Origin: Nymphaea colorata
Taxonomy: Eukaryota > Streptophyta > Magnoliopsida > Nymphaeales > Nymphaeaceae
DNA length: 64,000 nt
Assembly: GCF_008831285.2 (NCBI RefSeq)
Contig: NC_045143.1
Coordinates: 4,163,503-4,227,502, forward strand
Reading direction: 5' to 3'
Below the pieces are notes generated by a model that was not told the DNA's origin, made no database searches, and saw only the letters and a list, made by a program, of their open reading frames with translations. This document shows positions 36,832 to 64,000 of this stretch, one piece after another (positions within the stretch are counted from its first letter, which is position 1; each line of letters opens with the position of its first letter). The translations under genes and the position numbers were made by a program.

Positions 36832-38801
36832 TTTGGTTCAATGATTAGGTTGATTTCCCAATAATTTACATAGTAAATTAAGGTATACTACTGCAATTAA
36901 AATGAATTAATGGCTCACACTCTAGTAGCACTTGAGGAAATAACTCATTAAGCCATTACATCCTGGAACTCAAATTTTTGAGTCTTGATAAAATCATAAC
37001 CACATAGATGAAATGAGACCTGAAGGCTCATAGGTGAGACAAATTTCCTAAACTCTGAGCACTACCACATAGTTCTATTTGTGTATTCTCTATCCGATTG
37101 TAATAAATTTTGTGGTGTAAAGATCGCCAACTAAAAAAAAAAAAAAAAACCACCAACTTAAAGGTGTCCGTTTGTTGGCGTTGTAAGTTACTTTACACAT
37201 GCCCATTATTTATGAATCCTTCAATCGGTTGGACTCGTACTCGTATGAAGCACAGGTACACCGAAGTATTCAATCATTCATGCAGTGACTCAAATTTTAC
37301 GGTGGAGTTTGGTGAGTAAGTGTCAAAAGAAAGGGACATGGAGGGATCCACGCTCCTCTGGAATTCCTAATTAGGTCGCGTTTGATTACCATGGATCTCA
37401 GATTCGCAGTGATCTGAGATCTGCAGTTTTCATGTCCGACCTCCTCTCCAATCCAAGTTCAAATCCATGTTTTTTACATTAAAGAGTAGATCTGAAATCT
37501 AAATTAGGGGTGGATGCTGAAATCCACAGTTTGATTTCAGCTATCATGGAGTTGAGATTCTCCTTGGATCCGAGATCCATGAGAAATCAAAAGCAACCTA
37601 AGAGTTGAAAGCAGTGGGCTAATGAGAGATGGCTCTAAAGCGGCCGTCTACTCTTCATGAGTCTTGCTTGCCTTTATAACCTTTATGTCTGATTAATTTA
37701 CGAGACATTATGACTTCAGTAGACACTAGTGGTTGTGATTTGCATCTACCATTCAAACATGAGAAAAATCATCCATAGACAGATCTATCTCTCAAGGTGT
37801 GGTCGAAGTCATGAGGGGTCAATTTAGAATTGATTTCCTCGGGCACATGCTCAGTTGCGTAAAACTGATTGGTTCTCAAATAACAGCACTGTTTTTGTTT
37901 TTCGAACAGCAGCATGGAAACGTTACTTTCAAGATGGAGCTGGGGTTAGGCTTGCATACTCATAATGGTGCACATGAACTCATACTTCAAAATTCACTAC
38001 AGGACTGGTATTTTTGATCCCAGAAGTAAACCCATACAACGTGCTACCCTGAGAGGAACATAGTAAAATTGATGTCAGAAATTAATAAAGCCTATTAAGT
38101 ATGGATCAGGATCCACGGACCACGCTCGAACAATGAGTAGATAGACAGGTGCATCTCTAACCCGATTAAAAGCTAACAATTATAGCGGACAGTCTTGAAT
38201 TCCAACAGTTAGATCAATTCGGAAAGCAGTTTGGTCCTTTGTTAATGTTTAATATAATAACTAGGTTTTGGAGATTGTGATACACAGTTTGGCAGCTTAT
38301 GTACTGGCGATCTAATCCAATGCATGGTGCTAGGAAAAGCTTTCTTGTGCATATATGGTCTTGTTACGTTGGCCTGAGAAGGACATACGCTGCCATGACC
38401 CATTTTGGTGGCTGCTCCAAGACGGTATGGTCCATTATACTGGTCGTCAATCTATGTCAGATTATATAGCTCCAGTTTACATAATATTTCAGTGATAAAC
38501 CAAAATTATATTTATTCCTTTTCCTACTCCAAGGAGTTGTGGGCTTTCTTTTACCAATCGGGACCCTCCCTTCACCACCTCCATGCGGATACTGCCGTTG
38601 ACTTCTTAATCTGAGAGCTCGGTTCATTCCAGTTCTTAGCTAGAGTGCGTGCTACGGAATTCAAGAACAGAACACCACATAAAGGCGAACCATTTTTGGC
38701 ATGTAAACGTTTGCTGGTTAAAAGTGTCTGCCATTGTAGTCAAATAAGCAGTATACTGAGCTCAGAATAATACTGGTTCCTATCCAACTTTGCATGGTCA
38801 G

Positions 38802-39232
38802 CTATGTCACATATGTACGGGTTCGGTACTAATCATTTTTAAAAAACTTGGGTGCAGAGGTACGACCGTGTATATATATATATAAATAATAAGAAATACT
38901 TAGAAAATATGTATCAAAATAAAAAATATACATCAACATAAACAAATAAATAACATAGAAAATATATATCAACGGCTCTTGCAGTAGTGTGTTTAAGAAA
39001 CCTATGGAAAACTTTAAACATATGGACAACCAAGCAACCCCCTAGTCAAATTTGAACATCAATCGAATTTACACATCAAAAAAATAGAATAAAAAGTAAG
39101 GTGGAAAAAATTAAATCAAAGTAAAATTAAGCAGTTTGGATCTATAGGAACCCAAGTGTCAAAGTACCTATTTTGGGTACGAGTACGGCGACACGAGTAC
39201 GTGGATCTTACTGAAGTACCCACGTGACTTAG
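38802..39232. mobile_element. Non-autonomous hAT-like element (431 bp) with 8-bp target duplication
   Basis: The element is bordered on both sides by ATGGTCAG (38794-38801 and 39233-39240). Its ends are inverted repeats: the left reads CTATGTCACATATGTAC, and the right, reverse-complemented, reads CTAAGTCACGTGGGTAC (13 of 17 match). The duplicated copy at about 56542-56549 has a single TTGGTCAG and no insert, which is a natural empty site. Eight-base duplications are typical of hAT elements. No transposase is encoded. Repeated GTAC/ACGAGTAC phrases near the ends may be subterminal binding motifs. Confidence 0.85.
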
Positions 39233-40830
39233 ATGGTCAGGAAACCCAATAATTGCCGACATTGCATTTCATCGGGCTGTCTCATGCAATAAAAAAGCCT
39301 TGTGTTTGAAAGACACTTTGACTAGCAAATTCATAGAACACCATGAATGTGGTTCAACTTTAACGGATGCTTAGTAACACTTTTCTTGAATAAGTGGGGT
39401 CCATAGGTTAAGTGCAGAATAAAATTATATACAATGCAAATGCACTATTCTAATATGAAACCACCAATCCCTTCACAATTGAACGGACACCAAAGGGTTC
39501 CTTCCCCATTTTGAAATTTAGGTACGACTAATCTAGACGTACTGAATTGGAAATTTCTTATTGGTTGATGATCATGGCCCTCCAATGTTAGAAGCTTAAT
39601 CCACCTGACTTTCCACTCCACAGTTGAATATTAGGTAGGACTAGAGGATGCATTTTTGTTCTAGCAAATTATTGGGAAATCTTTACACCACGTGCTGGAT
39701 GATTTCATGATGAGTAGTCATTTTCGAACCATGATGGATCTTTCTAGTAAAACATGGAGGATAAAATAACTTATAAGAATGATTTTTCAAATGGGGTGTC
39801 AGACTATCCGTTTTTTACGTCTCTTATATTTATTTCTGTTTTAAATGACTGGAATGCCGTTGACATGAGAGACCGTGAATAGTCGATGATATGCGTCCTC
39901 CGCACGATCGACCATCGATGGGAGACTCGAATTGTCAAAAGCTAGATTTTACTTGAATTTTGCTCGATTTCCCTCTAATGGAAAGTATGTGTTTCGATTT
40001 GATCTTCAGCTTTAAAATTTGCTCATTCGCTTCTTTTTCTTCCTCTTCCTGAGTACAACTCCGTTGAAGGCACAACGGTTGAGACATAGATTTGATGCAA
40101 TCACCGTAATTACTCATGCATTTAAGATACTTCCAATTACTTGTTATCCATCTCTACAATCTTCTATCTTTTTTACTTTCTCCAGCATAACCAATAAACT
40201 CCAAGTATACTAACAAAATAGCACATAGACCCAATAGCATATCAACCCAATGGGGAGGAGGACTCCATAAAAGAGAAAGGACCGAGGATGGTACAAGGAC
40301 TGACAGAGAGTCTTAGGATCTGCAAGTTAATCTCCCAAATGGAAATTTGTGGAAAGGGGGATCTTGTTGCTCATTTAAGCAAAATCAAACAGATGCAGCT
40401 TCGGGAATGAATCCGAAACTAGGTACATGCGTAAACACGTACACCAGTGCATTGTGCCAAGGCTTATGTGCACGACAGGTATTTCTGGGAGTAGGCTAAG
40501 AACCTTTCAAAAGTAGGCTAGGAGAACACATGTCATGCACCGTGAACTGTGCACAGTGCACCTGATGTAGGTTACTATGTCCCTAATTGAATAAGTAAAC
40601 ATTCTTTGACAGAATGAGAGAAGGAGAAACGAAAAATCCTTATATTTGATGAAATGCTCTTGTAGTTGGTGAAACCAAGTTTCTGTTAGGTGAACCGGCA
40701 ACTAATGCAGCCACTTGGACGTCCGGCGACTATGACAGGGGAAAGAGGGATTGTCTCACATTGCAAAAAAGAATAGTGGCTCCAAAAGCTACATTCATCC
40801 AGCAGCTAAATTCCATAAACGATTGTGTCT

Positions 40831-40838
40831 ATATTAAG
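40831..40838 (+). promoter_or_regulatory. TATA box of laccase copy A
   Basis: TATATTAA lies 51 bases before the ATG and is conserved in copy B (58044-58051). The leader would be about 20 bases. Confidence 0.6.
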
Positions 40839-40881
40839 GCTTCCCTTGCCATCAGGCATTTCAAAGACAAAGGCGCCGACG

Positions 40882-42003
40882 ATGGCTATGGAGCGGCAAC
40901 CGGCACTGCTGCGACTGCAAGTCCTCTTGCTTTTTCTTTCCTTCTTGCTTTTCCACCAGGCGGTTGCCGAAGTTCACTACCACGAGTGGGTTGTAAGTTC
41001 CTGCAAAGACATGATCACCCATTATTTTTCTACAAGAGCTAACTTCTTGTTTGAAGGAATCCTATTAGTAAATTTATGGTGCTATCACCCTTAAATTGAA
41101 AGTTATTTTGCTTCTTTCTTATTCTTTATTGAAGAGAGTTCATTCTAGACTTTCAACATGGAAAACTCTACGACTTGCTTTATTGGTGGAAGACTTGCTT
41201 TATTGGTGAAAGACTGAGAAACTCTTGCCTTTGCCAAAAGATAATAACTCCACATCTTGAGGTGATCTGAGATGGCATTCCACAGTGACGGTGACGGAGG
41301 TTCTGCTGTGGCTGCAGGTGGCTCCAACTTCATATACAAGGCTCTGTCGCAGCAACGACATCCTGACGATCAATGGGCAGTTACCAGGGCCGACCTTATA
41401 CGTTCACAGGGGTGACACTGTCATCATCAACTCCTATAACCATGCCAACTACTCCGTCACCATTCACTGGTACCCTTACTGCATAAATACCCTTACACCT
41501 CTGTCTCTCTCTCTCGCTTTCTCTCTCTCTCTCTCTCTCTCTTTATATATATATATATGAGTGGAGCATCAAGCATGCAAGCATGCAAGCAAGCACATGT
41601 GCATGTGTGGATGTGCAGTTTTACTTAGATGTGTGTGTGTGCAGCTGTGCGTGCATGTTTAGATCTGTGAAGTGGGGATGAAAACATATGGAAATTCAGT
41701 GGTGATATATGATTTGATGGGATACTGGAAACTTGATGTGAAATTGTAGGCATGGATTGAAGCAGCCTAGGAACCCATGGTCGGACGGGACGGAGTTTGT
41801 AACCATGTGTGGTGTTCCACCGGGAAAGAATTTCACCTACACTCTTCTCTTCACAACTGAGGAAGGCACCATTTGGTATCATGCTCACAGTGAATGGACT
41901 CGCGCCACCGTTTATGGTGCCATTGTCGTTTACCCTAAGATGGGAGCCACTTACCCTTTCCCAAAGCCAGACAATGAATACGTGGTTGTTATAGGTAAAT
42001 GTT

Positions 42004-42035
<32 letters not shown>

Positions 42036-45000
42036 TATATATATATATAGTTTAAAAGGTTAAACCTATGAATGAACAAGCAGTGGAACCAACGCGTGCT
42101 CAACTCCACCTTGTTAGTTTGTTTGATAAATTAGTAAAGCTCAAGCTCAAATTTTAACTTCAGCTTTTAACCTAGTTGAGTTAGAGCTACAGAAACTTGA
42201 CTCCTCTGAAAATTACAAAAACATTCCCATTCTTTTACTCTGTACATAAGAGGTGCACGCAACCTCTTCTCCATCAAAAAAGCCATTAATTTCTGGTTAA
42301 GGAGAAATAGTAATAAATTTTAAAAAGGAGCATCAATATAAGGTATCAATGTAAAATGAGTATTTTTTTATGCGTCTGTGTGTGCAATTGCCTACAAGAT
42401 GCCTCACACCTGGCTCTACTCCTGTTCTTCTGCTCTGACACTGCCGACCACCTGCCGCTGGCATTGCACAGCTTATCTCTCGCTCTTCTTCTTCTTTATT
42501 TCTTTAAGCGTTCGACAGTTTTATTTTCCAATTCTTTTGTTTCTGCTTCCCTCATTCTCATGACTCGTCGAAGTCTCCAATCTGCCAACCATCATCTGCT
42601 TGCAGGTTGCAGCTTTCAACCTTTCGCACTTCCTCGTTTTTATTGTTTAATTTGTGCATCTACATTATCTATTTCAAATCAGGTTCTTCGTAGTTTAGTT
42701 AGGAGGCTGGTTGTAATTATGACAGTTGTATTTTTGGAGCTCTGAGCTTGAGATTACAAGCAGTAATGTAGGAACATGATGTGCAGGGCCCGTTATCATT
42801 TGGTGGGCTTCTCTATGCTTTTCTTTTCTCGTTTCTTGGAAGAAAAATGGACTGTCATTTAGAGACGGTTCTGATATTGCCATCGCTAAGCATTTTGAAG
42901 GTGATATGTACATTGAAGCAAGAGGTTGCATTTTCAACGTTCTATATTTAAGAATTCCCAGAGTGATTGAGTGAATAAGCATGTCGATGTTACACAAGAA
43001 AGATAATTAATTTTAGAGGATAGGAGCATAAGCTTGAGCTGGATTTTGTCTAACCTAATCGAGTTTTAACCCCACCTTACCAAGCTTGACTCAAATTTTA
43101 TCCAAGCTCATACCGCACAAGCTCAGTTGGCTGATGTACATCTCTAGTCGCACCTAAGATCCACATTTATCGTTGTTTACTTTTTTGCATTGAGAGAAGA
43201 TCTGATTTAAGACTGGAGGTGGAGGATCGGTATTGTCCTCAAATCTTGAGACAGTGGGCCAGGCCTTATTAAATAGGCTCCCCAGTTGTGAGACGCCAAC
43301 TTACTTAATTTGTAGTGTGCCTGTTTAAGACAGGTTGGTGCTGAAGGGTCACCGTGGCTTACCCGGGAGTCGGGATATAATCTGTATCAGATCCCGTCTT
43401 TAATGAAGTCGTCCTACTCAAATTATCTGCGATCAGGTTCAGTTCATGCCATGGAAACCAAGATTTGCTTAGCATAAGAACAAACATGTATGTGTAATGA
43501 CATCGGATCGGATCATTATCCAAACCAGTTGGATATTTGGACTCGAATTCAGATCCACATTCATCCATGAAATTCTAGGAAAAGTAACCAGATGATCTGG
43601 ACCTTTTACCAGATGCAACCATGTGGATTTCAAATCAAACCAGTAGTCAGGTAAATGAGCCAAGTCATTTGCATCTCTAACTTCATCTTCACGCAAAATA
43701 ATTACCACTTAAATCTATTACTTACTAGTTTTTATACTTATATGAGCGTTTGGCTGACTGATGAAAGCATGCAATTTTTACTTTTGTACAAATGAATTAG
43801 GTGAATGGTGGAACAGTGATATAATGGACGTGTTTGTGGAAGGGGTGACGAGCGGGAAGGATTTCAACGTATCAAAAGGATATACCATAAATGGGCAACC
43901 GGGTGATCTGTATGAATGCTCACAATCAGGTAAGAAATAGTTTCTGCCATCTCTTTGTAATTAACAAATTCCCAGCATTCGCTGCTCGATCTAACTTGCC
44001 AGACATTTTATGAGACATGAAAAACAGACACGTAAATCAGATTTTCTGAGACTTTTAGGATTAATTGATGAAAAGAGCACGTACTTTGGGGGAGCGGGGA
44101 GAGAAAATGAAAGGAGAGAAAGAGTTGATCGTGTCTCTCTCTCCCTGTAAATAAATAAATAAACAAACAAATATAAATGTATCATACCCAGTCTCACATG
44201 CGAGACCTTTGATTAAGTTGCCAATTAATATGAAAGACAAGTTGTTGTTGTTGTTTTTTTTTTTCCAAGTCCGAATGCACCTCAAATGAATAAACACACG
44301 TGTTTCCTTTTTTAATCTCTCTTATCCCTTGAATGAGATTTCAACCTCTTCAAATGATAATAGGTCACCTCATATGTTTACAACTTAATTTCTATCCTGT
44401 GGATTGATTGGAATCAACGGCCAAAAGTATTCCCACTAAATATGGTATAGGAGAGCCTGTTTGCAAAACTAGTTGTGTGCACGCCCCCATGCACAAAAAA
44501 TTGTGCACAAAGGTGTGTAATCTCCAAAATACCTTGATTAAATATGAAAAAAAACTTTCCAAAAAGACAAAAAAGGGATTATGAAAAAATATAAAGAATT
44601 TAAAATGTACATTTATTTATAAAAAAAATTGTAAAATACCCCAATCCCATTTTTACTGTATTTTTGTTGCATGCACACTAGTTTTGGTGGCAGCTGTTTG
44701 AAATGACAAACCAATAATCAACAATTTCCGAACGAAATGAAATTGAAATCGTTTTCATTTGGTTTTTGATGATGCAGGGACAAGCCGGTTTGTGGTTGAG
44801 TATGGCAAGACGTATCTGTTCCGCGTTGTCAACGCAGTAATGAGCTTCGGGATGTTCATCGGCATAGCGAATCACACACTCAGAGTTGTTGGTCGAGACG
44901 GAGCCTACCTTAAGCCGTTTGAGAGAGAATTTGTCCTGCTAAACGTAGGGCAGACAATAGATATCCTTGTGACGGCAAATCAATCACAAGGTCTCTATTA

Positions 45001-51700: not shown

Positions 51701-53599
51701 GAATTGTTTGAGCTTATATTGCATGTTTAACCCCTTGCCTGCATGAGTTTGCTGAAATTGAATTCAGGTTTAGCCCATCTGAATGGATTGTTTTGGCTTG
51801 CATTGCAAGTTTAACCTCTTACCTGCATGGGTTGCTCTTGGCTTGTGTTGAGTCTAGCCCTTACGTGCATAGGTTGCTTTGGCTTGCATTACAGGTTTAA
51901 CCACTTACTTTGTGTGAGTTGCTCTTTTGTCCTTAATTTCAGGTTTTACTTTTTTTTGAATGGGTTGCTCGATAATAAATGGTAATGCCGGGAATGAACC
52001 CTCATCATCTCAAATACCTTTGTTGAAACTGGGAGTGAGACCCTATTGCTCTTACATTGTTTGAGACAAGAAGACTTGCTATCACCTTGAGTGCCTTATG
52101 GTGAAGTTTTTGTTTTCGGCAACGACTAGATTTTGAACTTGCTTAGTAAAATTCCCCAAACTAGCACTTGGGTTGAGCTTACTTTGAGAAGCCCTTGGCC
52201 AAATGACCAAGTTGCGCATGTTCCATCAGTTTCCCTTGTCTAGTGACATGGTTGAGCTAGCTTTGAAATGCCTTGAAGGTAGAAGCCGGACTGTGATTGA
52301 TGAAATCTTTAGCTTAGCAACTGAATTTTAATTGGGATATGACCCTTTTCTTGACGGACAATGATGATTTTGTAAAAAAAAAATGTCGTAAAATAATTTA
52401 AAAAATGCCTCAAAATATCCATAAAAAATGCCATAGTGTTGGGAATTGTCATGTAAGCGATAGGATATGATTCAAAACAAAATATGCCATGTACTAGGTA
52501 AAAGATAAATGGTTGATATCTGGGATTGAGATTGAGGTGAAGGAAATAATGGAAAAAGCCTCAATAAAAGAAGTGTGGAAAGTTGATATATTTTTTGCCA
52601 ATAGAAAAAAGAGGGTGCAAGAAATTTGTTATGGGGTCTAAAAGAATTTTTGATGTGTTTTTAATGACAAGCAATTGAGACAAAGCTTGTAGGAAAGAAA
52701 TTCGTTATAAGAATACGATCAATAGATAACGAAGTTGATATCATTCCAAAGATAATATAACAAAATAAAGAAAATTATGAGTGATCTATTATTTGTGAAT
52801 TTATTTTGAAATGATTAAATCTCAAGCATACATGTTGTTTGATTCATATAGACTCAACATGAGTGAATGAATAAGTTAAAATCACATGTCTAATGATTGA
52901 AAAATGAAGTAAACGAAATGTTGGCAATCAACTCGAAATAACTGGTGTCCTAATAAAATAAAAAAAGTAGTAAAATAGGAAGAAAGACACATCATGTGTA
53001 TTGAAACTAGAAAATTATTTGGCTAAATATAAATAAGAAAAAATGCATGATCTGAGTCAAACAAAGTTGGTAATCATGTTTAATAATAGAACATTGGACA
53101 AATGAATAAATGAGAGATTCAAAAGGTATGATGTAGATTTTGAAGCAATTTTTTAAAAAATAGACTTGCCGAATGATAGAATTTGAAAAATCAATGGGTT
53201 TATGACGTGATCAAGTTAAAAACTACATAGAGATGATCAAAGAAGACAAAGATTTAAATGAGGAATGTGGAATGTAAGGTTATTGAATTGATCAAGGAGT
53301 GAATGGAAGACACGCATGCATTCATCATAAATAAATATCTAGCATTTTCTAGGGTCATATACATTTATTATGCATATATTTGAAAAAAGAGCATAGAACC
53401 CCAATTAAGTTTGGTTTGATAAATTATGATTATTCTATATAAGATATGCCAATATATCTTAGCCAGGAGGCTTAGTACGAGCATAGACTCCTCCATTTAG
53501 GAACTAATGGTAAGATTTATTAATTTATTTTTGAACACTCGATACATCACAAGTTGCCACTCATGGTACTAACCAGGGGACTCTTCCACCCAAGGTGTG
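48775..53599. other. Gene-free AT-rich DNA between the duplicated blocks
   Basis: No coding exon is recognised. It includes 'gagataatgat'-type repeats at 48.99-49.17 kb, related to those at 47.03-47.1 kb. Also present are an imperfect tandem duplication near 49.56-49.67 kb and a 31-bp direct repeat (about 49957-49986 and 50157-50186). A degenerate tandem array lies at 51.67-51.97 kb. Around 50.64 kb, 'ggggtatttatagg' could be the TATA region of an old LTR, but no partner LTR was found. Confidence 0.5.
51671..51970. repeat. Degenerate tandem array, about six ~50-bp units
   Basis: The units share the phrases 'caggtttaacccc', 'ttgcctgcatggg' and 'gttgcttggcttgcatt'. Divergence between units is high, so the array is old. 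Confidence 0.65.
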
Positions 53600-54783
53600 G
53601 TTCAATGATTAGGTTGATTTTCCAATGATTAACATAATAAACTAAGGTATACAACAGCAACTAGAATGACTTAATGGCCCACACTCTAATAGCACTGGAG
53701 GAAATAACTTGAGCAAGAAATCCATGAGCATATATATTGTCTCAAAATTGATATGATTCTCAGTGGTACTAGGCAAGAGCAATGATAAGGTGCAAAACAT
53801 AATCGGACAAAAAATTGAGCCATTACATATCCTGGAACTCAAATTTTTGAGTCTTGATAAAATCATAACCACATAGATGGGTTGAGACCTAAAGGCTGAT
53901 AGGTGAGACACAATTCCTTATGAGCACTACCACATAATTGTATTTGTGTATTCTCTATCCGATTGTGCTAAAGTTGGTGGTGTAAAGATCGCCAACTAAA
54001 AATAGAAAAAACCACCAACTTAAAGTTGTCTGTTTGTTGGCATTTAGTAAGTTACTTTACACATGCTGAGTATTTATGAGTCGTTCAATCGGTTGGACAG
54101 GTACTTGTATGAAGCACAGGTACGCCTAAGTATCCAATCAAATACTTGGTCAGAGTTTGGGCATTCATGACAGTGACTCACTCAAATTTTACGGTGGAGT
54201 ATGGTGAGTAAGTGTCAAAAGGAAGGGCCATGGAGGGATCCACGTTCCTCCGGAATTCCTAATTAGGTCACGTTTGATAGCCATGGATCTCAGTTTCGCA
54301 GTGATCTAAGATCTGTAGTTTTCAAGCCCGACCTCCTCTCCTATCCAATTTCAAATCCATGCTTTTTACATTAAAGTGTAGATCTGAAATCTAAATTAGG
54401 GGTGGATGCTGAAATCGACAATTTGATTTCAGCTATCATGGAGTTGAGATTCTCCTTGGATCCGAGATCCATGAGAAATCAAAAGCAACCTAAGAGTTGA
54501 AAGCAGTGGGCTTCTACTCTTCATGAGTCTTGCTTGCCTTTATAACCTTTATGTCTGATTAATTTACGAGACATTATGACTTCAGTAGACACTAGTGGTT
54601 GTGATTTGCATCTACCATTCAAACATGAGAAAAGTCATCCATAGACAGATTCTTGACAAATGGCTCCTCCAATATTGTGGAAAGATAGCAAAGTATTTGG
54701 ATTTGTCTCCCAAGTGGTTGAAATCATGATGGGTCAATTTAGAATTGACTTCCTCTGTAGTTGCGTAAAACTGATTGGTTCTG

Positions 54784-55558
54784 GTTTTCAAAAAGTAGCA
54801 TTGTGGATCAATTCTGAAATGAAAATGCTGGAATCAAGATTCCATCGACCGTGCTCTGCTCCCTCGTGCCCCACCTTTTCCCAACCCTCACCCACGATGC
54901 CCTAACACGCCTTTTTCCTCCATCCATGCCGTTAGCTATCTTCTCTCTTTGTCCTTTATCCCCACCAGCAATGAAGTGCAGCTGATCGGGAGTTTTCAAC
55001 TCTTCAAACAGCAGGTTGCAGCAGGTATGTGAAGATCTTCCCTGCCCTTGCTCTCTCTCTCACTCGTTTTGTCAAAGGATTGACGAGGGATGGCCTTTTC
55101 TTTGCATAGAGAGAGGCTGCTCCAGAGAGGCCAGCTCCACCCAATACAACGTATGGAAGATGGAGGAAGCAACCAGAGAGGCCAGTTCCACCCAATATGA
55201 CGTATGGAAGATAGAGGAAGAAGAAGAAGGGACGAGAGTCGAAGAGAGACGAAGGTCGAACAAAAGGGGAGAAGAAGAGGCAGGCGAGCGGGCGAGCTTT
55301 CTTAAAAACTTAAAAATAAAAAAAAAACCTTAAAAATTGGACCAAAGTAGTCTGGTGCACATTTGACCGCACCCGACTCATGTCAAACAGGAGTAGGGTG
55401 CGAATAAAAAAAAGACGATTTTAACCGGGTGCGCCTGACCGCACCCGACTCTTGTTTGACTTATTTGGGTGCGCACCGAAAGCGCACCAGTACCCGCACC
55501 CACACCCGCATCGCATCGACACGGGTGCGAGGCCAAACGTGGCGCACCCTGGTATCAT
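54784..55558. other. Copy-B-specific block in the duplication
   Basis: It lies between anchors 'aaaactgattggttct' and 'catacaacgtgctagcc', where copy A has about 160 different bases (37.87-38.03 kb). It contains a 52-bp tandem repeat and a GC-rich part (55.36-55.55 kb) with repeated GGTGCG/CGCACC phrases such as 'gaccgcacccgactc' (twice). It could be one or more inserted elements; no ends are certain. Confidence 0.55.
55122..55225. repeat. 52-bp tandem duplication
   Basis: Units at 55122-55173 and 55174-55225 start 'ccagagaggccag' and contain 'cgtatggaagat'. They differ at a handful of bases. Confidence 0.85.
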
Positions 55559-55599
55559 AGCATACAACGTGCTAGCCAAAAAGGAAAGTAGTAAAATTG

Positions 55600-55935
55600 A
55601 TACCAGAATAGAAAGGAAGAAGAATGACACACAAAGTTTTTTTACATGGTTCAGTGACAAAGTTCTCTTACGTCCATGGGTGCATTCGGCTTTTTTTTTT
55701 TAATATCCCAAAAAGATTAGAGTACCAGAAAAAATTAATTGTGCCCTTTAAACATGGGAATTAGGAGTTTTCTCGAGCAGGCCTTTTATTTGGTAGGTAA
55801 TATCGATGAAGATACCATGAAGGCTATGTACTTAGAAGTAGAGAGCAAATTGAAAAAATGACCCTAAATCTTTGTATACCGACTCTACACCATAAAATGT
55901 AAACTTACATAAACACCTATACAAAATTTTTCGCA
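55600..55935. mobile_element. Possible LTR-retrotransposon fragment
   Basis: Present in copy B and absent from the matching place in copy A. It contains 'acatggttcagtgacaaagttc' in part and 'cttacgtccatggg', a phrase I associate with LTRs of plant retrotransposons. No paired LTR or coding part is seen. Confidence 0.3.
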
Positions 55936-58101
55936 TTATGAAAGCCTATTAAGTATAGATCAGACCCCACGGACCACGCTCTGAGTAGACAGACAGGTGC
56001 ATCTCTAACCCGATTAAAAGGTAAAAATTAAAGCAGACAGTCTTGAATTCCAACAGTTAGACCAATTCAGAAAGCAGTTTGTTCCTTTGTTAATGTTTTA
56101 TATAATAACTAGGTTTTGGAGATTGTGATACCCAATTGGCAGCTTATGTACTGGCGATCTAATCCAATACATGGTGCTAGGAAAAGCTTTCTTGTGCCTA
56201 TGCTCTTGTTACGTTGGCCTGAGAAGGATATATGCTGCGATGACCCATTTTGATGGCTGCTCCAATATACTGGTCGTCAATCTTTGTCAGATTACATAGC
56301 TGCAGTTTACATAATATTTCAGTGATAAACCAAAGTTTACTGCAGTTGATTTCCTAATGTAATATTCGGTTCATTCCAGTTCTTAGCTAGAATGCGTGCT
56401 AAGGAATTCAAGAACAGAACACCACATGAAGGCCAACCATTTTTGGCATATACATGTTTGCTGGTTAAAAGGCGCCTGCCCTTGCAGTCAAATGAGCAAT
56501 ATACTGAGCTCAGAATAATACGGGCTCCTATCCAACTTTGCTTGGTCAGGAGGCCCAATAATTGCAGACATTACTTTTCCTTGGGCTGTCTCATGCAATC
56601 AAAAGAGCTTACGTTTGAAAGGCACTTTGAGTCGCGAATTGATAGAACACCACGAATGTTGTTCAACTTTAACGGATGCTTAGGAACACTTTTCTTGGAT
56701 AAGTGGGGTCTATAGGTTGACTGCAGATTAAAATTATATGCAATATAAAGGCACTATTCTAATATGCAACCACCAATCCCTTCATAATTGAACGGACATC
56801 AAAGGGTTCCTTCCCCATTTTGAAAATTAGGTACGACTACTCTAAACGTACTGAATTGGAAATTTCTTATTGGTTGATGATCATGGCCCTCCAATGTCAG
56901 AAGCTTAATCCACCTGACTTTCCACTCCACAGTTGAATATTAGGTGGGACTAGAGGGTGCATTTTTGTTCTAGCAAATTATTGAGAAATCTTTACACCAA
57001 GTGCTGGATGATTTCATGAGGAGTAGTCATTTTTGAACCATGATGGATCTTTCTAGTAAAACCTGGAGGATAAAATAACTTATAAGAATGATTTTTCAAA
57101 TGGGTGTCAGACTATCCTATATTTTTTTCTGTTTTAAATGACTGAAATGCCGCTGACACGGGAGACCGTGAATAGTCGATGATATGCGTGCTCCGCACGA
57201 TGGACCGTCGATGGTAGACTCGAATTGTAAAAAACTAGATTTTACTTGAATTTTGCTCGATTTCCCTCTAATGGAAAGTATGTGTTTCGATTTGATCTCC
57301 AGCTTTAAAATTTGCTCACTCGCTTCTTTTTCTACCTCTTCCTGAGTACAACTCCGTTGAAGGCACAACGGTTGAGAGATAGATTTGATGCAATCGCCGT
57401 AATTACTCATGCATTTAAGATACTTCCAATTACTTGTTATCCACCTCTACAATATTCTATCTTTTTTACTGTCTCCAACATAAACGATAAACTCCTATAC
57501 TACAACAAAATAGCACATAGACCAAATAGAATATCAATCCAATGGGGAGCAGGACTCTATAAATGGAAATTTGTGTGAAGGGGGATCCTGTTGCTCATTT
57601 AAGAAAAATCAAACAGCCTTGGGAATGAATCCAAAGCTAGCTATATGCATGAACCCGTAAACCTGTGCATTGTACTCAGCCTGATGTGCATGACACATAT
57701 TTTTGGGAATAGGCCAAGAACCTTCCAAAAGTGGGCTAGGAGAACACATCTAATGCACTGGAAACACGGTTCGCCTGAATCCCTGATGCAGGTAACTACT
57801 TCCCTAATTGAATAAGCAAACTTTCTCTGACAGAATGAGAAACTGAAAATCCCCTTATATTTGGTAAATGATCTTGTGCTTAGTTGGTGAAACCCAGTTG
57901 CTGTTAGGTGAACCGGCAACTAAGGCGGCCAATTGGACGCCCGGCGGCTATGACGGGGGAAAGAGGGAATTGTCTCCTATTGCAAACAATAATGACTAAA
58001 AGGTACATCGATCCTGCAGCTAAATTACATAAACGATCCTGTCTATATTAAGGCCTCCCTTGCCACCAGGCATTTCAAAGACAAAGGCGCCGACGACGGC
58101 T

Positions 58102-59108
58102 ATGGAGCATCAACCGGCTCTGGTGCGACTGCAAGTCCTCTTGCTTCTTCTTCCCTTCTTGCTTTTCCGGCTGGCGGTTGCCGAAGTTCACTACCAGGAG
58201 TGGGTTGTAAGTTTCTGCAACGGCATGATCATTAAGTGCTATCGCACTTAAATTGAAGTTATTTTGCTTCTTTCTTATTCTTTAATGAAGAGAGTTCGTT
58301 CTTGACTCTCAAGATGGAAAAAACTCTACGATTTGCTTTTTTGGTGAAAGACTGAGAAGCTCTTGCCTTTGTCTGCCAAATGATAATAACCCCACATCCT
58401 GAGGTGATCTGAGATGGCATTCCAAAGTGATGGGGGTTCTGCTGTGGCTGCAGGTGGCTCCAACTTCATATACAAGGCTCTGTCGCAGCAACGACATCCT
58501 GACGATCAATGGGCAGTTACCAGGGCCGACCTTATACGTTCACAGGGGTGACACTGTCATCATCAACTCCTATAACCATGCCAACTACTCCGTCACTATT
58601 CACTGGTACCCTTACTGCATAAATACCCTTACACCTCTGTCTCTCCCGCTTTCTCTCTCTCTCTTTATATATATGTATATGAGTGGAGCATCAAGCATGC
58701 ATGCGAGCACATGTGCATGTGTGGATGTGCAGTTTTATTTAGATGCGTGTGTGTGCAGCTGTGCGTGCATGATTAGAGCTGTGAATTGGCGATGAAAACA
58801 TATGGAAATTCAGTGGTGATATATGATTTGATGGGATATTGGAAACTTGATGTGAAATTGTAGGCATGGATTGAAGCAGCCTAGGAACCCGTGGTCGGAC
58901 GGGACGGAGTTTGTAACCATGTGTGGTGTTCCACCGGGAAAGAATTTCACCTACACTCTTCTCTTCACAACTGAGGAAGGCACCATTTGGTATCATGCTC
59001 ACAGTGAATGGACTCGCGCCACCGTTTATGGTGCCATTGTCGTTTACCCTAAGATGGGAGCCACTTACCCTTTCCCAAAGCCAGACAGTGAATACGTGGT
59101 TGTTATAG
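58102..59108 (+). CDS. LAC: Laccase, second copy, exons 1-3 only in the window
   Basis: Exons 58102-58206, 58454-58605 and 58864-59108 match laccase A exons 1-3 with the same phases. The first ATG of copy A reads ACG here, so translation would start at the next in-frame ATG (58102), two codons later. The signal peptide remains (MEHQPALVRL, a Leu-rich core, AVA|EVHYQEW). IHWHG and WYHAHSEW are intact. Exons 2 and 3 differ from copy A at one and about two bases, while exon 1 differs at about ten. Intron 3 is interrupted by a Copia element at 60076, and exons 4-6 would lie beyond the window. Whether this copy still gives a full mRNA is unknown. Confidence 0.88.
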
Positions 59109-60070
59109 GTAAATGTCTCTCTCTCTTTATATATATGGTCCCTATGAATCTAGTTAAATCCACATTTTTAGACAACATGGACAAAAAGTGAGTCCCGCAA
59201 AGGGCAGGCTTAGTCTTGTCAAAAGTCTGATGTGTCATACTTTTGTTAGTATTTTAAAATCATAGGTTACACCTATGAATGATCAAGGAGTCGAACCATC
59301 TCGTGCTGGACTTGTTAGTTTGTTTGATAAATTAGTAAAGCTCAAGCTCAAATTTTAACTTGAGCTTTTAACCAAGTTGAGTTGGAGCTACAAAAACTTG
59401 ACTCCATTTAAAGTTAGATAAACATCGCCATTCTTTTTACTGTGTACATAAGAGGTGCACGCAACCTCTTCTTCGCAGAACCATAAATTTCTGGTTAAGG
59501 AGAAAAAAGTAATAAATTTCAAAATTTTAAAAAGCATCGATATATAACAAGGAAAATTGTTATAAGGTATCAATGCAAAAATAAGTATTTTTTATGCTTT
59601 TGTCTGTGCAATTGCCCACACTGTGCTACACACCTGCCTCTCCTGTTCTTCTGCTCTGACACTGTGGACCATCTGTCACTGGCATTGCACAGCTTATCTC
59701 TCCCTCTTCTTCTTCTTCTTCTTCTTCTTTATTTCTTTAAGCGTTCGACAGTTTTATTTTCCAATTCTTTTGTTTCTACTTCCCTCACTCTCGTGACTCA
59801 TCGAAGCCTCCAATCTGCCAACCATCATCTTCCTCGTTTTTATTGTTTAATTTGTGCATCTATATTAGGAGGCTGGAAGTCATTATGACAGTTGTATTTT
59901 TGGAGCTCTGAATTTGAGATTAAAAGCAGTAATGTAGGAACATGATGTCCAGGGCCCATTACCATTTGGTGCGCTTCTCTATGATTTTCTTTTCTCGTTT
60001 CGTGGAAGAAAATGGACTGTGTCATTTAGAGACGATTCTGATATTGCCATCGCTAAGCATTTTGAAGGTG

Positions 60071-60075
60071 ATGTG
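60071..60075 (+). other. Inferred 5-bp target site (ATGTG) of the Copia insertion
   Basis: The base after this string is the LTR start. Copy A reads ATATG at the same place (42904-42908) and continues into intron 3 sequence. The second copy of the target site would be just outside the window. Confidence 0.6.
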
Positions 60076-60088
60076 TGTAGAGAGTCAT

Positions 60089-60268
60089 CACCGACTCTCT
60101 TGTAAGAGTCGAGATGACTCAAGAGGCTTGTAGCCTCTTCATTTGTAAAGTCGGTGAGAGTCTCAATTTTAAGTCGGTGGTTATGTAATGATTAAAGAAG
60201 AAAAATAATAATTAAATAAAATAAAGAAAAGTAAATGTGGAAGTCGGTGGAAGCATCCACCACCGACT
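60089..60268 (+). promoter_or_regulatory. Cluster of five ACCGAC (DRE/CRT-core) motifs in the LTR U3
   Basis: CACCGACT or its complement AGTCGGTG occurs at 60089-60096, 60149-60156, 60172-60179, 60242-60249 and 60261-60268. The last two form a perfect 11-bp inverted repeat (60240-60250 and 60260-60270, loop 9) that ends seven bases before the TATA box. RCCGAC is the core bound by CBF/DREB factors of the AP2/ERF family. Stress-induced use is inferred. Confidence 0.6.
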
Positions 60269-60277
60269 TCATCTCCC

Positions 60278-60285
60278 TATAAATA
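60278..60285 (+). promoter_or_regulatory. TATA box of the retrotransposon promoter
   Basis: TATAAATA in 'ccctataaataggg'; it is repeated in the 3' LTR at 63818-63825. Confidence 0.85.
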
Positions 60286-60344
60286 GGGACGTTGGGTCAT
60301 AGTGAGAGTGTAAGGAGAAAAATCAAGTTGAGTGATCTTGGGTT

Positions 60345-60517
60345 CTCACTTTGTGAGTTGGGTGTGTTGTGTGATCTTAGGTTCTCACTTTGTGAGTTGG
60401 GTGTGTGCTCATTTTATGAGCTGGTGAGTGTTAGCTCGTGTGTTCACTTTGTGAACTCGAGTTAAAGTTTCAAGTGTATGCTGCAAGGGCGTTGGGTATG
60501 TTAGCTCACTGCGTGAG
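60345..60517 (+). other. Array of five 13-nt inverted repeats in R/U5
   Basis: CTCACTTTGTGAG at 60345 and 60384, CTCATTTTATGAG at 60408, TTCACTTTGTGAA at 60443, and CTCACTGCGTGAG at 60505. Each has a 5-base arm, a 3-base centre and a matching 5-base arm. Where an arm base changes, its partner changes too. The first two sit in a 39-bp tandem repeat. They may be small RNA hairpins in the element's leader or protein-binding palindromes in DNA. Confidence 0.7.
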
Positions 60518-60704
60518 TCGAGGTGAGTTTTCTTAAGCCCTCTTTTGTAATATCCAATTTGATGAATAAATAGTTTACTTGTTCAAGTATACTTTGCTAA
60601 GTTCTTATTAAGTATCAGTTTGGACGTCGAGACTCTGCTAGATTTTCTCCGCATAAATTTGAGTTTGTAGCTGAGTTAGGGCCCGCATTACGTTTTCCAA
60701 CAAT

Positions 60705-60716
60705 TGGTATCAGAGC
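60705..60716 (+). other. Primer binding site, tRNA-iMet
   Basis: TGGTATCAGAGC, complementary to the 3' end of plant initiator tRNA-Met, two bases after the LTR. Confidence 0.95.
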
Positions 60717-60765: not shown

Positions 60766-63620
60766 ATGGCGGCATTAGCAGTTGCATTAAACAATATTGA
60801 GAAACTTAACAATAGCAATTATGGCTATTGGAAATCTTGTATGGAGTCGTATTTTCTAGGACAGGAATTATGAGAGATAGTATTGGGATCAGACACTAAT
60901 ATTCCTGTCGACGAGGAAGCTAAAAAGAAATGGATGATCAAAGCAGGGAAAACTCTATTTGCAATTAAAGTATCAATTGAGAAAGATTTATTAGAGCATA
61001 TACGAGATGCTACGACTCTTAAAGAAGCATGGGATGCTTTTGCAACCTTATTTTCACGAGCTAATGATGCCCGCCTACAATTATTAGAAAATGATCTAGC
61101 TACATTAACTCAGGGAAGCATGTCGATAGCAGAATATTTTATGAAGGTTAAAAATATTTGTAGAGAGATATCTCAAATCGACCCTGAGTCTAAAATCAGT
61201 GAGGCCCGTATGCGGAGAATACTTATTCGCGGACTTCGTCCAGAATTTGGCAGTTTTATAATTGGTGTTCAAGGCTGGCCAGTTCAACCAACTTTGTTGG
61301 AGTTAGAAAATCTCTTGATCAATCAAGAAACATTAGCGAAGCAAATGGTCGGGCTTTCTCTCAAGGGAAATAATGAGGAAGCTTTATTTAGTAAGGGTCA
61401 GAGATCACGATGGCCAGCTAAGCCAGTCATTCGGTCTCCAAGTAGGAATATTGATGACAAGAAAGAGAAAAATGTACAAAAGAAAACAAGAGAAACTACA
61501 CAGCAGTGGAAACCAAAGGTGAAATGTTTTAGATGTGGAAGGCTGGGTCATTTTGCTCGTGACTGCAGAGTTAGAATAAATGAAGGAAATACAGTCACGA
61601 CGAGTAAGCAAAATGAGGGAGCTAATGAGACTGTACAGAAAAATTCGTTTTTGTACTCAATGGAGGTAAAAGAAAATATTACGCAAGAAGGATGCAATTC
61701 TGCCCATATAAAACCTCCAAAAGAAAAAGAAGAGAAGATCAATTATCAAACTGATTGGATAATTGATTCTGAATGCTCAAATCATATGACTGGTGATGAG
61801 AGCAAGTTTGTAAGTATGAAAGAATATGATGGAAATCGAGTTGTTGTTACTGCTAACAACACAAAGCTCCCGGTGGCACATATTGGAGAAGCAGAGGTTG
61901 TAGCCAACTTCGGTAAAGACCGGATTTTACGGAACGTTTACCATGTTCCAGGAATGACAAAAAATTTGTTGTCTGTGCCACAACTAATAACTTTAGGGCT
62001 CTATGTTTTGTTCGGCCCAAATGATGTGAAAGTTTATAAAGACGAAGATGTTCAAGGAACTCCCGTGTTTGAAGGAAGAAAAGTTGAGTCAATATATGTA
62101 TTGTCAGCAGAAACAGCATATATTGACAAAGCAAAGAAGCATGACACTGCAGATATCTGGCATGAGAGACTCGCTCATGTTGGATACAACAAACTTCGGG
62201 AGATGTCTAATAAGGGGCAGTTGATTGGTCTGCCCAAGCTTGAGGTACGAACAGATAAAGTATGCCCAGGATGTCAATATGGAAAGGCGCACAGAAGGCC
62301 ATACAAAGAATCAAAATATAGAGCTAAAGCGCCATTCGAGCTTGTGCATTCAGACGTATTCGGCAAAGTACCAGACCCATCAGTTGGAGGTAAGTGGTAT
62401 TTTATCACTTTTATTGATGACTTTTCAAGATATACTTGGGTCTATTTTATGAAAGAAAAGTCTGAAGCACTTGAAAAATTTAAGGAGTTTCACCAGATGG
62501 TGAAAAATGAACTTGGGCGTAGAATTCAGTGTCTACGAACCGATAATGGTAGCGAATATACATCAGACATGTTCATGGCGTACATGAAGCAACATGGTAT
62601 TCGTAGGCAATTTACATGCGCCTATACGCCTCAACAAAATGGAGTGGCAGAACGGAAGAACCGCCACATAGCAGAAACGTGTCGAAGCATGATGCATGCA
62701 AAGAACATGCCACCAAGATTTTGGGCCGAGTGTGTCAGCACCGCTGTACACGTAATTAATTGACTACCAATGCCGAGATTTAATTTTAAATCTCCATATG
62801 AAATGCTTTATAAAAAGATGCCATCTGTGAGTTATTTTCGAGTATTTGGTTGTGTTTGTTATGTCTTTATATCTGAGTAGCACAGGACTAAGTTCGACAA
62901 AAAAGCACAGAAGTGTGTCTTTGTCGGATATGACCCATATCGAAAAGGATGGAGATGTGCTAATCCTAGCACTGGACAAGTTTATGTTTCTCGTGACGTC
63001 ATCTTCGATGAAGCATCGTCGTGGTGGTCAGAAGAGAAGAAGACACTTCCAGACTCTCCAGTTCTTGAGAGAGATATTCAAAACAAAATACAATTTGAGA
63101 TGAATCAAGGAGAGCCTGAGCTTGAAGACACAGAAGCAAGACAGCCAGATAAGAAGTTCATTACCCAAGACAAGAAGAACGTACAGATCCATGGAGAACT
63201 GGAGTCAGTCCAATCCAACAAAGAAGTGCAGAAGAAGAAAGACCATCACAATTTGAAGAGCCAGAAGAAGCTGAATATAGAGCAGCATCTCAAGCAGCAC
63301 AAGAATGTGTGTGGTTGATGCGACTGCTGAAAGACATTAAACAAGACGTGGATTATGCAGTAAGACTCTACTGCGATAATCAAAGTGCAGTCAGACTTGC
63401 AGAGAATCCTGTCTTCCATGCTCTAACGAAACATATAGAGGTGGAGCATCACTTTATTAGAGAGAAGGTACTCAAAGGAGAGATTCAGTTGCAGCCAATT
63501 GCTTCAGAAGACCAAGTCGCTGACATCTTTACCAAGGGCTTACCAGTACAGACATTCGTAAAACTTCGAAGAATGTTGAGAATCATAAGTAGAGAGTCAG
63601 TAATGAGGGGGAGATTGTAG
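60766..63620 (+). pseudogene. Defective Copia gag-pol
   Basis: The likely start is ATG 60766. An in-frame TGA follows at 60871, then an open run to the TGA at 62761 and a further TAG at 62878. Visible domains are gag and the zinc knuckle CFRCGRLGHFARDC (61525-61566), and protease with DSE instead of the usual DSG at 61765-61773. Integrase has its HHCC finger and an intact D (62353), D (62542), E (62650) triad. After the integrase C-terminal part the frame shifts. The sequence then passes directly to the last part of RNase H (EAEYRAASQAAQ, YCDNQSAVRL, a DIFTKGL end). The whole reverse transcriptase and the start of RNase H are missing. The last stop overlaps the 3' LTR by a few bases. Confidence 0.92.
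63603..63615 (+). other. Polypurine tract
   Basis: 'atgagggggagat' directly precedes the 3' LTR, as needed for plus-strand priming. Confidence 0.85.
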
Positions 63621-64000
63621 AGAGTCATCACCGACTCTCTTGGAAGAGTCGAGATGACTCAAGAGGCTTGTAGCCTCTTCATTTGTAAAGTCGGTGAGAG
63701 TCTCAATTTTAAGTCGGTGGTTATGTAATGATTAAAGAAGAAAAATAATAATTAAATAAAATAAAGAAAAGTAAATGTGGAAGTCGGTGGAAGCATCCAC
63801 CACCGACTTCATCTCCCTATAAATAGGGACGTTGGGTCATAGTGAGAGTGTAAGGAGAAAAATCAAGTTGAGTGATCTTGGGTTCTCACTTTGTGAGTTG
63901 GGTGTGTTGAGTGATCTTAGGTTCTCACTTTGTGAGTTGGGTGTGTGCTCATTTTATGAGCTGGTGAGTGTTAGCTCGTGTGTTCACTTTGTGAACTCGA
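63616..64000 (+). repeat. 3' LTR, first 385 bases
   Basis: Identical to 60076-60460 except two bases. It carries all five ACCGAC motifs, the TATA box and four of the five 13-nt inverted repeats. The window ends inside it. Confidence 0.95.

Follow-up and report, generated by a model that had tools for sequence, protein, structure and literature searches.

The U3 of a Copia LTR retrotransposon family in Nymphaea colorata carries an array of DRE/CRT-type sites that is strongly enriched, widely retained among family members and extended at additional positions; no other stress element is strongly enriched there, and the more diverged copies carry fewer sites. We consider it probable, at a little under 0.6, that the array recruits DREB-type AP2/ERF activators to the TATA promoter of the element itself under stress, a reading built from sequence. 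Our starting point was a window, a stretch of 64,000 nucleotides (contig NC_045143.1, positions 4,163,503 to 4,227,502), for which a preliminary description had pointed to a motif cluster in a young Copia LTR; the conservation survey used the one genome from which the window comes (408 Mb in 783 contigs).

DRE Sites Upstream of the TATA Box

The octamer CACCGACT/AGTCGGTG matches exactly five times within 60089–60268, in the U3 of the LTR. Matches to CACCGACT start at 60089 and 60261 on the forward strand and at 60149, 60172 and 60242 on the reverse strand, and the TATA box TATAAATA follows at 60278–60285 (forward strand); the cluster upstream of the TATA box and its three-plus-two split of orientations are as first described. 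The last pair had been said to form a perfect 11-bp inverted repeat ahead of TATAAATA, and it does: the arms GAAGTCGGTGG (60240–60250) and CCACCGACTTC (60260–60270) enclose a 9-nt spacer, the whole spanning 60240–60270, and TATAAATA begins 7 bp past the proximal arm. The right LTR repeats all five copies (63629–63808), giving 10 matches to CACCGACT in the window against 0.66 expected and a maximum of 3 among 100 shuffles, in agreement with the earlier view that the recurrence exceeds chance. As each LTR of an element duplicates the other, the second set is no independent evidence, which has to come from other copies in the genome.

All five sites contain the RCCGAC core of the DRE/CRT element and lie in the U3, which upholds their original classification. 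We refer to them as S1 (60090–60095, forward strand, ACCGACTC flank), S2 (60150–60155, reverse strand, ACCGACTT), S3 (60173–60178, reverse strand, also ACCGACTT), S4 (60243–60248, reverse strand), which forms the distal arm of the inverted repeat, and S5 (60262–60267, forward strand), which forms the proximal arm 16 bp upstream of TATAAATA.

Structure and Insertion Site of the Element

The 5′ LTR (60076–60702, forward strand; 627 bp, with TG..CA ends) recurs at 63616 as the 3′ LTR, which is cut by the window end (63616–64000) and in the genome reaches 64242. The end of the U3 at about 60307 is an estimate from the position of the TATA box, with R/U5 after it. A 5-bp target-site duplication, ATGTG, occupies 60071–60075, and its second copy lies just past the window, after the right LTR. 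Between the LTRs, all on the forward strand, we found a primer-binding site (TGGTATCAGAGC, 60705–60716), which we take to be of the initiator-Met tRNA type; an open frame (60874–62763) in which Pfam searches on pieces matched gag, a zinc knuckle, a pol beta-barrel domain, GAG-pre-integrase and the integrase core; an SH3-like domain matched by Pfam together with an RNase H remnant (62881–63620), the latter read from the translation, with no Pfam RNase H match there; and a polypurine tract (GAGGGGGAGA, 63605–63614). With two LTRs, a target duplication, Copia-type gag and integrase, a primer-binding site and a polypurine tract, the element is a Copia LTR retrotransposon. A comparison of its LTRs shows 4 differences in 627 positions, which marks the insertion as young; with an assumed rate of 0.7 to 1.3e-8 substitutions per site and year, the age is roughly 0.25–0.5 million years. 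The label "young Copia LTR" in the preliminary description is thus well founded.

Reverse transcriptase had no Pfam match in the scanned pieces of the window element (62764–62880 lay outside the scan). The family is Copia, and this copy lacks the detectable reverse transcriptase expected of an autonomous member, so it would be mobile only through the enzymes of other copies. Its LTR starts are 3,540 bp apart, those of many other pairs about 4.7–4.8 kb and of some 3.4–3.9 kb, and the window copy seems to have arisen from a longer element by internal deletion.

Upstream of the insertion, laccase exons in two frames (Cu-oxidase_3 by Pfam) lie at 58403–59188 on the forward strand. The window holds a tandem duplication that contains two laccase genes (36834–42909 and 53598–60076; longer blocks 79–91% identical), the second of which received the element. 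The left flank matches the paralogue to 42909 and the right flank matches it from 42904, so the duplicate preserves the empty site (42904–42909, forward strand) and the insertion postdates the duplication. The next laccase exon candidate after the element occurs both in the duplicate and in the right flank, from a translation read by eye. With a laccase exon before it and an exon-like stretch after it, the element thus appears to be intronic and in the sense direction of the gene, the downstream exon being a reading of the translation. The association with a laccase made in the preliminary description stands, and its placement of the element near the gene gives way to one apparently inside an intron. 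The LTRs in the window could still act on the host laccase.

Family-Wide Occurrence of the Sites

LTRs were gathered with motif-free probes, one from R/U5 and one from RNase H, so that copies were not picked by the motif; counts from the genome searches are lower bounds. The R/U5 probe returned RCCGAC in the U3 of all 40 best-scoring LTRs, with five sites in 22 of them. With the RNase H probe, RCCGAC was present in the U3 of 55 of 59 LTRs (median 3, up to 6), a set in which distant family members are under-sampled: it was taken from about 92 places at 54% identity or more among the matches listed and consists of 54 of the top 55 and five lower ones, the omitted small-contig entry having matched another in score and identity. 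In contrast, RCCGAC occurred in 2 of 20 control stretches taken downstream of RNase H in other Copia elements, with one site each; these controls were part of the places at 42–51% identity, comprised the 450 bases that follow the RNase H match with U3 ends unmapped, and formed 10 groups at 80% identity. The interpretation in the preliminary description was to fall if the motifs were not conserved among other copies, and this comparison does not refute it.

A further GTCGGTA, which is ACCGAC on the opposite strand, stands just before the polypurine tract in 46 of the 59 family members, and the window copy has GTCAGTA at that place (63596–63601). It lies outside the U3, was excluded from the U3 counts above and may owe its retention to the coding frame.

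We then reduced the RNase-H-probed set to 29 representative U3s that share less than 85% identity with one another, 11 of the 59 U3s having been dropped because no polypurine tract or TATA box was found by the pattern used. The most over-represented 6-mer among them was ACCGAC, with 85 occurrences against 1.4 expected and a 100-shuffle maximum of 5, and it was present in 27 of the 29. Genome-wide, the inverted-repeat pattern (10-bp arms, at most two mismatches) matched at 99 places, and its reversed control matched at 1. Together with the octamer counts in the window, these figures rule out a chance origin of the cluster. Plain shared ancestry is likewise insufficient, given that identity among the representative U3s averages 0.67 and that sites occur at new positions.

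The positional record was drawn from 25 aligned elements, in which S1 is present in 24, S5 in 23, S3 in 21, S2 in 15 and S4 in 11. As five of the 25 are near-identical, a scan of the window U3 in 6-base windows (201 windows) was limited to 21 elements and gave a median of 3 identical. By this measure S5 was identical in 19 of 21, equalled or beaten only by windows on the TATA box and its edge, with TATAAA aligned and identical in all 21; S3 was identical in 18, on par with GGTGGA beside S4, and S1 in 16, a value partly due to an alignment gap that splits the site. The corresponding numbers were 11 for S2 and 7 for S4. At six additional aligned positions a DRE was found in one to three of the 25 elements, and several of these positions fall in stretches absent from the window LTR. 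The distance to the TATA box also recurs: a same-strand DRE starts 15–18 bp before TATAAATA in 40 of the 52 LTRs that contain TATAAATA, the remaining 12 comprising 11 without a DRE within 25 bp and one with a DRE starting at 23 (seven of the 59 LTRs lack TATAAATA and were left out).

The sites fall into 11 flank classes that share little outside the core, which was itself the search criterion. The preceding base is C (8 classes) or T (3), the two following bases are mostly T (8 of 11 each), and the commonest flank in the family is CACCGACTT. Copies below 84% RNase H identity carry 0–3 sites. The rich array may therefore be recent, and the lower numbers in diverged copies may reflect decay or a true gain of sites in young lineages.

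Among 15 types of promoter element counted in the 29 U3s, the DRE alone was strongly enriched (RCCGAC, 87 against 1.8 expected). The ABRE/G-box YACGTG was absent (0 against 1.2), the W-box (2 against 8.1) and MYB sites (1 against 6.0) showed no enrichment, and the HSE core (7 against 3.4) and the GCN4 type (3 against 1.1) were weakly raised, within the shuffle range; all remaining types stood no higher than expected. As none of them is enriched in these U3s, we rejected TGTCTC (auxin-type), ABRE, W-box, MYB, GCC and as-1 elements as the main input.

Palindromes in U3 and R/U5

The inverted repeat formed by S4 and S5 raises the question of whether a hairpin, and not the sites, is the conserved feature. 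Loss of the distal arm is far commoner than loss of the proximal arm, a difference that makes a conserved hairpin or palindrome unlikely and favors a binding site. Another palindrome of the U3, AAGAGGCT TGT AGCCTCTT, lies at 60121–60139, and AGCCTC, present in 18 of 29 U3s, ranks with the most enriched 6-mers.

An array of short palindromes in R/U5 (60345–60517, forward strand) adjoins the DRE array and is no part of it. It consists of CTCAC(TTT)GTGAG, present twice, GCTCAT(TTT)ATGAGC, GTTCAC(TTT)GTGAAC and CTCAC(TGC)GTGAG, all with three-base loops, and lies downstream of the expected transcription start. Such palindromes are found in other copies too, including GTTCAC(TTC)GTGAAC, and some copies have none or a single one. 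Both arms often change together between repeats and copies, so that pairing is kept. The RNA of 60305–60560 is predicted to fold better than shuffled sequences (z −2.4, with 2 of 200 as good), and only some of the hairpins appear in the predicted fold.

Substitutions and CpG Content of the Sites

Differences between the two LTRs of an element arise after insertion, and we contrasted them with the differences between elements. Within elements (32 LTR pairs), 16 of 862 motif bases and 85 of 4880 other bases had changed, equal rates overall. Between elements, all usable copies (22–23 matched pairs) gave ratios of 0.75–0.83 (p 0.40–0.50), and 16 young elements, a restriction chosen after the result for all elements had been seen, gave 5/201 versus 88/945 (p 0.021). 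With CpG bases set aside, the counts became 4 and 73 within elements and 4 and 87 between them (p 1.0). CpG changes fast and is abundant in the motif; the signal in the young elements is lost on correction and we do not count it as support.

When the within-element changes were divided by class, leaving out the doubtful pair L003/L007, the motif changed at 12 of 278 CpG bases and the other sequence at 12 of 118 (p 0.036); in the non-CpG class the figures were 4 of 554 and 73 of 4530 (p 0.14). Motif bases thus change less even within elements and free decay after insertion is not supported either, with the qualification that a site was counted only if intact in one of the two copies, which may by itself depress the motif rate. 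The retention of sites is real, and the substitution test gives no support for selection as its cause.

Two further arrangements of copies came to light in the genome. L003 and L007 (C2 of the same genome, 6.292 and 6.306 Mb) are near-identical LTRs 14 kb apart that share the same left flank, and so are probably a duplicated stretch and not one element. L082 and L098 (C9, about 12.1915–12.1955 Mb) form a tandem in which each of two RNase H segments is followed by an LTR and the middle LTR is shared, which suggests recombination between copies.

The DREs hold most of the CpG dinucleotides of the U3. Five of the six CpGs in the window U3 lie inside DREs, as do 87 of 147 in the 29 representatives, where the CpG observed/expected ratio outside the motifs is 0.46. 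Among the 16 motif changes in LTR pairs, 12 fell at the CpG, eight of these being C-to-T or G-to-A, which is the pattern expected if silent copies are methylated. With the CpGs so concentrated, DNA methylation could hold the array shut until silencing is relaxed. At ONSEN-type LTRs, DNA methylation hinders binding of the heat factor, according to the accessible part of PMC8101250; in the literature searched, available in part, nothing comparable turned up for DREB.

Candidate Mechanism and Alternatives

The U3 is organized as a compact promoter in which the TATA box usually has one same-strand DRE 15–18 bp upstream, and the richer copies have another two to five DREs on either strand. DREB-type AP2/ERF activators, made under drought, salt or cold, would most likely bind the DREs and thereby switch the element on, with the effects of several sites adding up or cooperating. 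Selection acting through transcription of the element may keep the sites, and methylation of their CpGs could keep the array silent until silencing is relaxed. The flanks agree with such binding: C or T before the core and mostly TT after it fit both A/GCCGACNT, given as the DREB consensus in the available text of PMC4287451, and CACCGAC, found de novo in two classes of dehydrin promoters (PMC4482647, accessible portion). Grape CBFs activated every DRE flank tested, unequally; the weakest variant with two of them, still above the mutant control, was TACCGACTT (PMC4196112, as far as its available text goes), which is close to CACCGACTT.

Other readings of the array have to be weighed against DREB recruitment. 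The sites might be bound by AP2/ERF proteins unconnected with stress, the LTR then following development, seed maturation or repression; ABI4-like factors prefer CACCG, and DEAR-type factors are repressors. The core in the 59 RNase-H-probed stretches is ACCGAC in 222 cases and GCCGAC in 2, usually after C, a preference that does not single out CBF/DREB1, and the ABRE, the usual partner in ABA responses, is missing from the U3s. Set against this are the dehydrin promoters, in which CACCGAC is the de novo motif of two classes (PMC4482647), and the unequal activation of all tested flanks by grape CBFs (PMC4196112), each as reported in the parts available, and on balance we find a non-stress factor unlikely, if the most credible of the alternatives.

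A less probable account is that the motifs persist by descent, by exchange between copies or through DNA or RNA structure, and not as selected factor sites. The perfect inverted repeat of S4 and S5, its 99 genomic places at up to two mismatches, the further palindromes in U3 and R/U5, and a CpG-corrected substitution test without sign of between-lineage selection all speak for it. The arms have, however, fared very differently (S4 intact in 11 of 25 elements, S5 in 23), several copies break the complementarity, isolated sites, sites on either strand and sites at new positions are seen as well, and ACCGAC persists in 27 of 29 U3s whose identity averages 0.67. It is more improbable still that the sites once drove a stress response and are now inert, the relic array of a silenced family spread by a few recent source copies. 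The CpG-biased motif changes in LTR pairs (12 of 16, eight of them C-to-T or G-to-A) are as for methylated silent DNA, but the window insertion is young at 4/627 differences, 16 of the 32 LTR pairs are no more than 1.5% apart in the U3, and some family members have long open frames.

Recruitment of DREB activators under stress thus remains our preferred reading, and within it the nature of the signal needs adjustment. The preliminary description named cold or drought. The behavior of the tomato element Rider in the cold (below) and the weak response of TACCGACTT to grape CBFs make drought or a general DREB input likelier than cold alone, and cold as the inducing signal appears weakened. We also put forward, tentatively and at less than even odds, a wider proposal: that this is a Copia promoter reading one host signal, in which a DRE array with one near-fixed TATA distance is kept for the element and repeatedly extended, and which acts as a methylation-gated DREB switch that spreads drought/cold modules, here into a laccase intron.

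Relation to Other Stress-Responsive Elements

ONSEN/ATCOPIA78 and other heat-responsive Copia elements of Brassicaceae likewise carry a cluster of sites for a host stress factor in the LTR, and in ONSEN the cluster of heat elements expanded as a proto-element was duplicated (PMC5059998, available portion). As in ONSEN, the cluster in the Nymphaea family consists of sites of one stress-factor type in the U3, and it is retained beyond the U3 background in both count and aligned position. ONSEN differs in having heat elements (nGAAn) and a measured heat induction, whereas the Nymphaea family has DREs and is known from its sequence. Rider, a Copia element of tomato, has dehydration-responsive elements and a CBF site in its U3 as well, and responds to drought and ABA and not to cold despite the CBF site (PMC6762207, accessible text). 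Rider, compared here by its description, also has ABA-linked elements, whereas in the window family the DRE is the sole strongly enriched class and the ABRE is absent.

In citrus, Tcs1/Tcs2 provide an LTR that acts as a cold-dependent gene promoter (Ruby of blood orange); the review consulted, in its available part, does not name the sites responsible (PMC5056178). Maize transposable element families tied to cold, heat and salt response are also enriched in A/GCCGACNT, for which the accessible text gives presence and mean number per element and describes no dense array or lineage-wide retention (PMC4287451). In the literature searched, available in part and mostly without subscription papers, no DRE-only Copia family is described. 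Among the viral_contigs, the pattern scan gave 0 matches and the RNase H peptide search no relative.

If DREB factors drive the family, it would be for drought and cold what ONSEN is for heat, a family of retrotransposons that captured a central stress pathway and went on accumulating binding sites for it. Its copies would then form a natural promoter series ranging from 0 to 6 DREs in known places, through which the number and orientation of sites and their distance to the TATA box could be related to stress output, and the family would be a clear case of mobile elements bringing stress-response modules into host genes.
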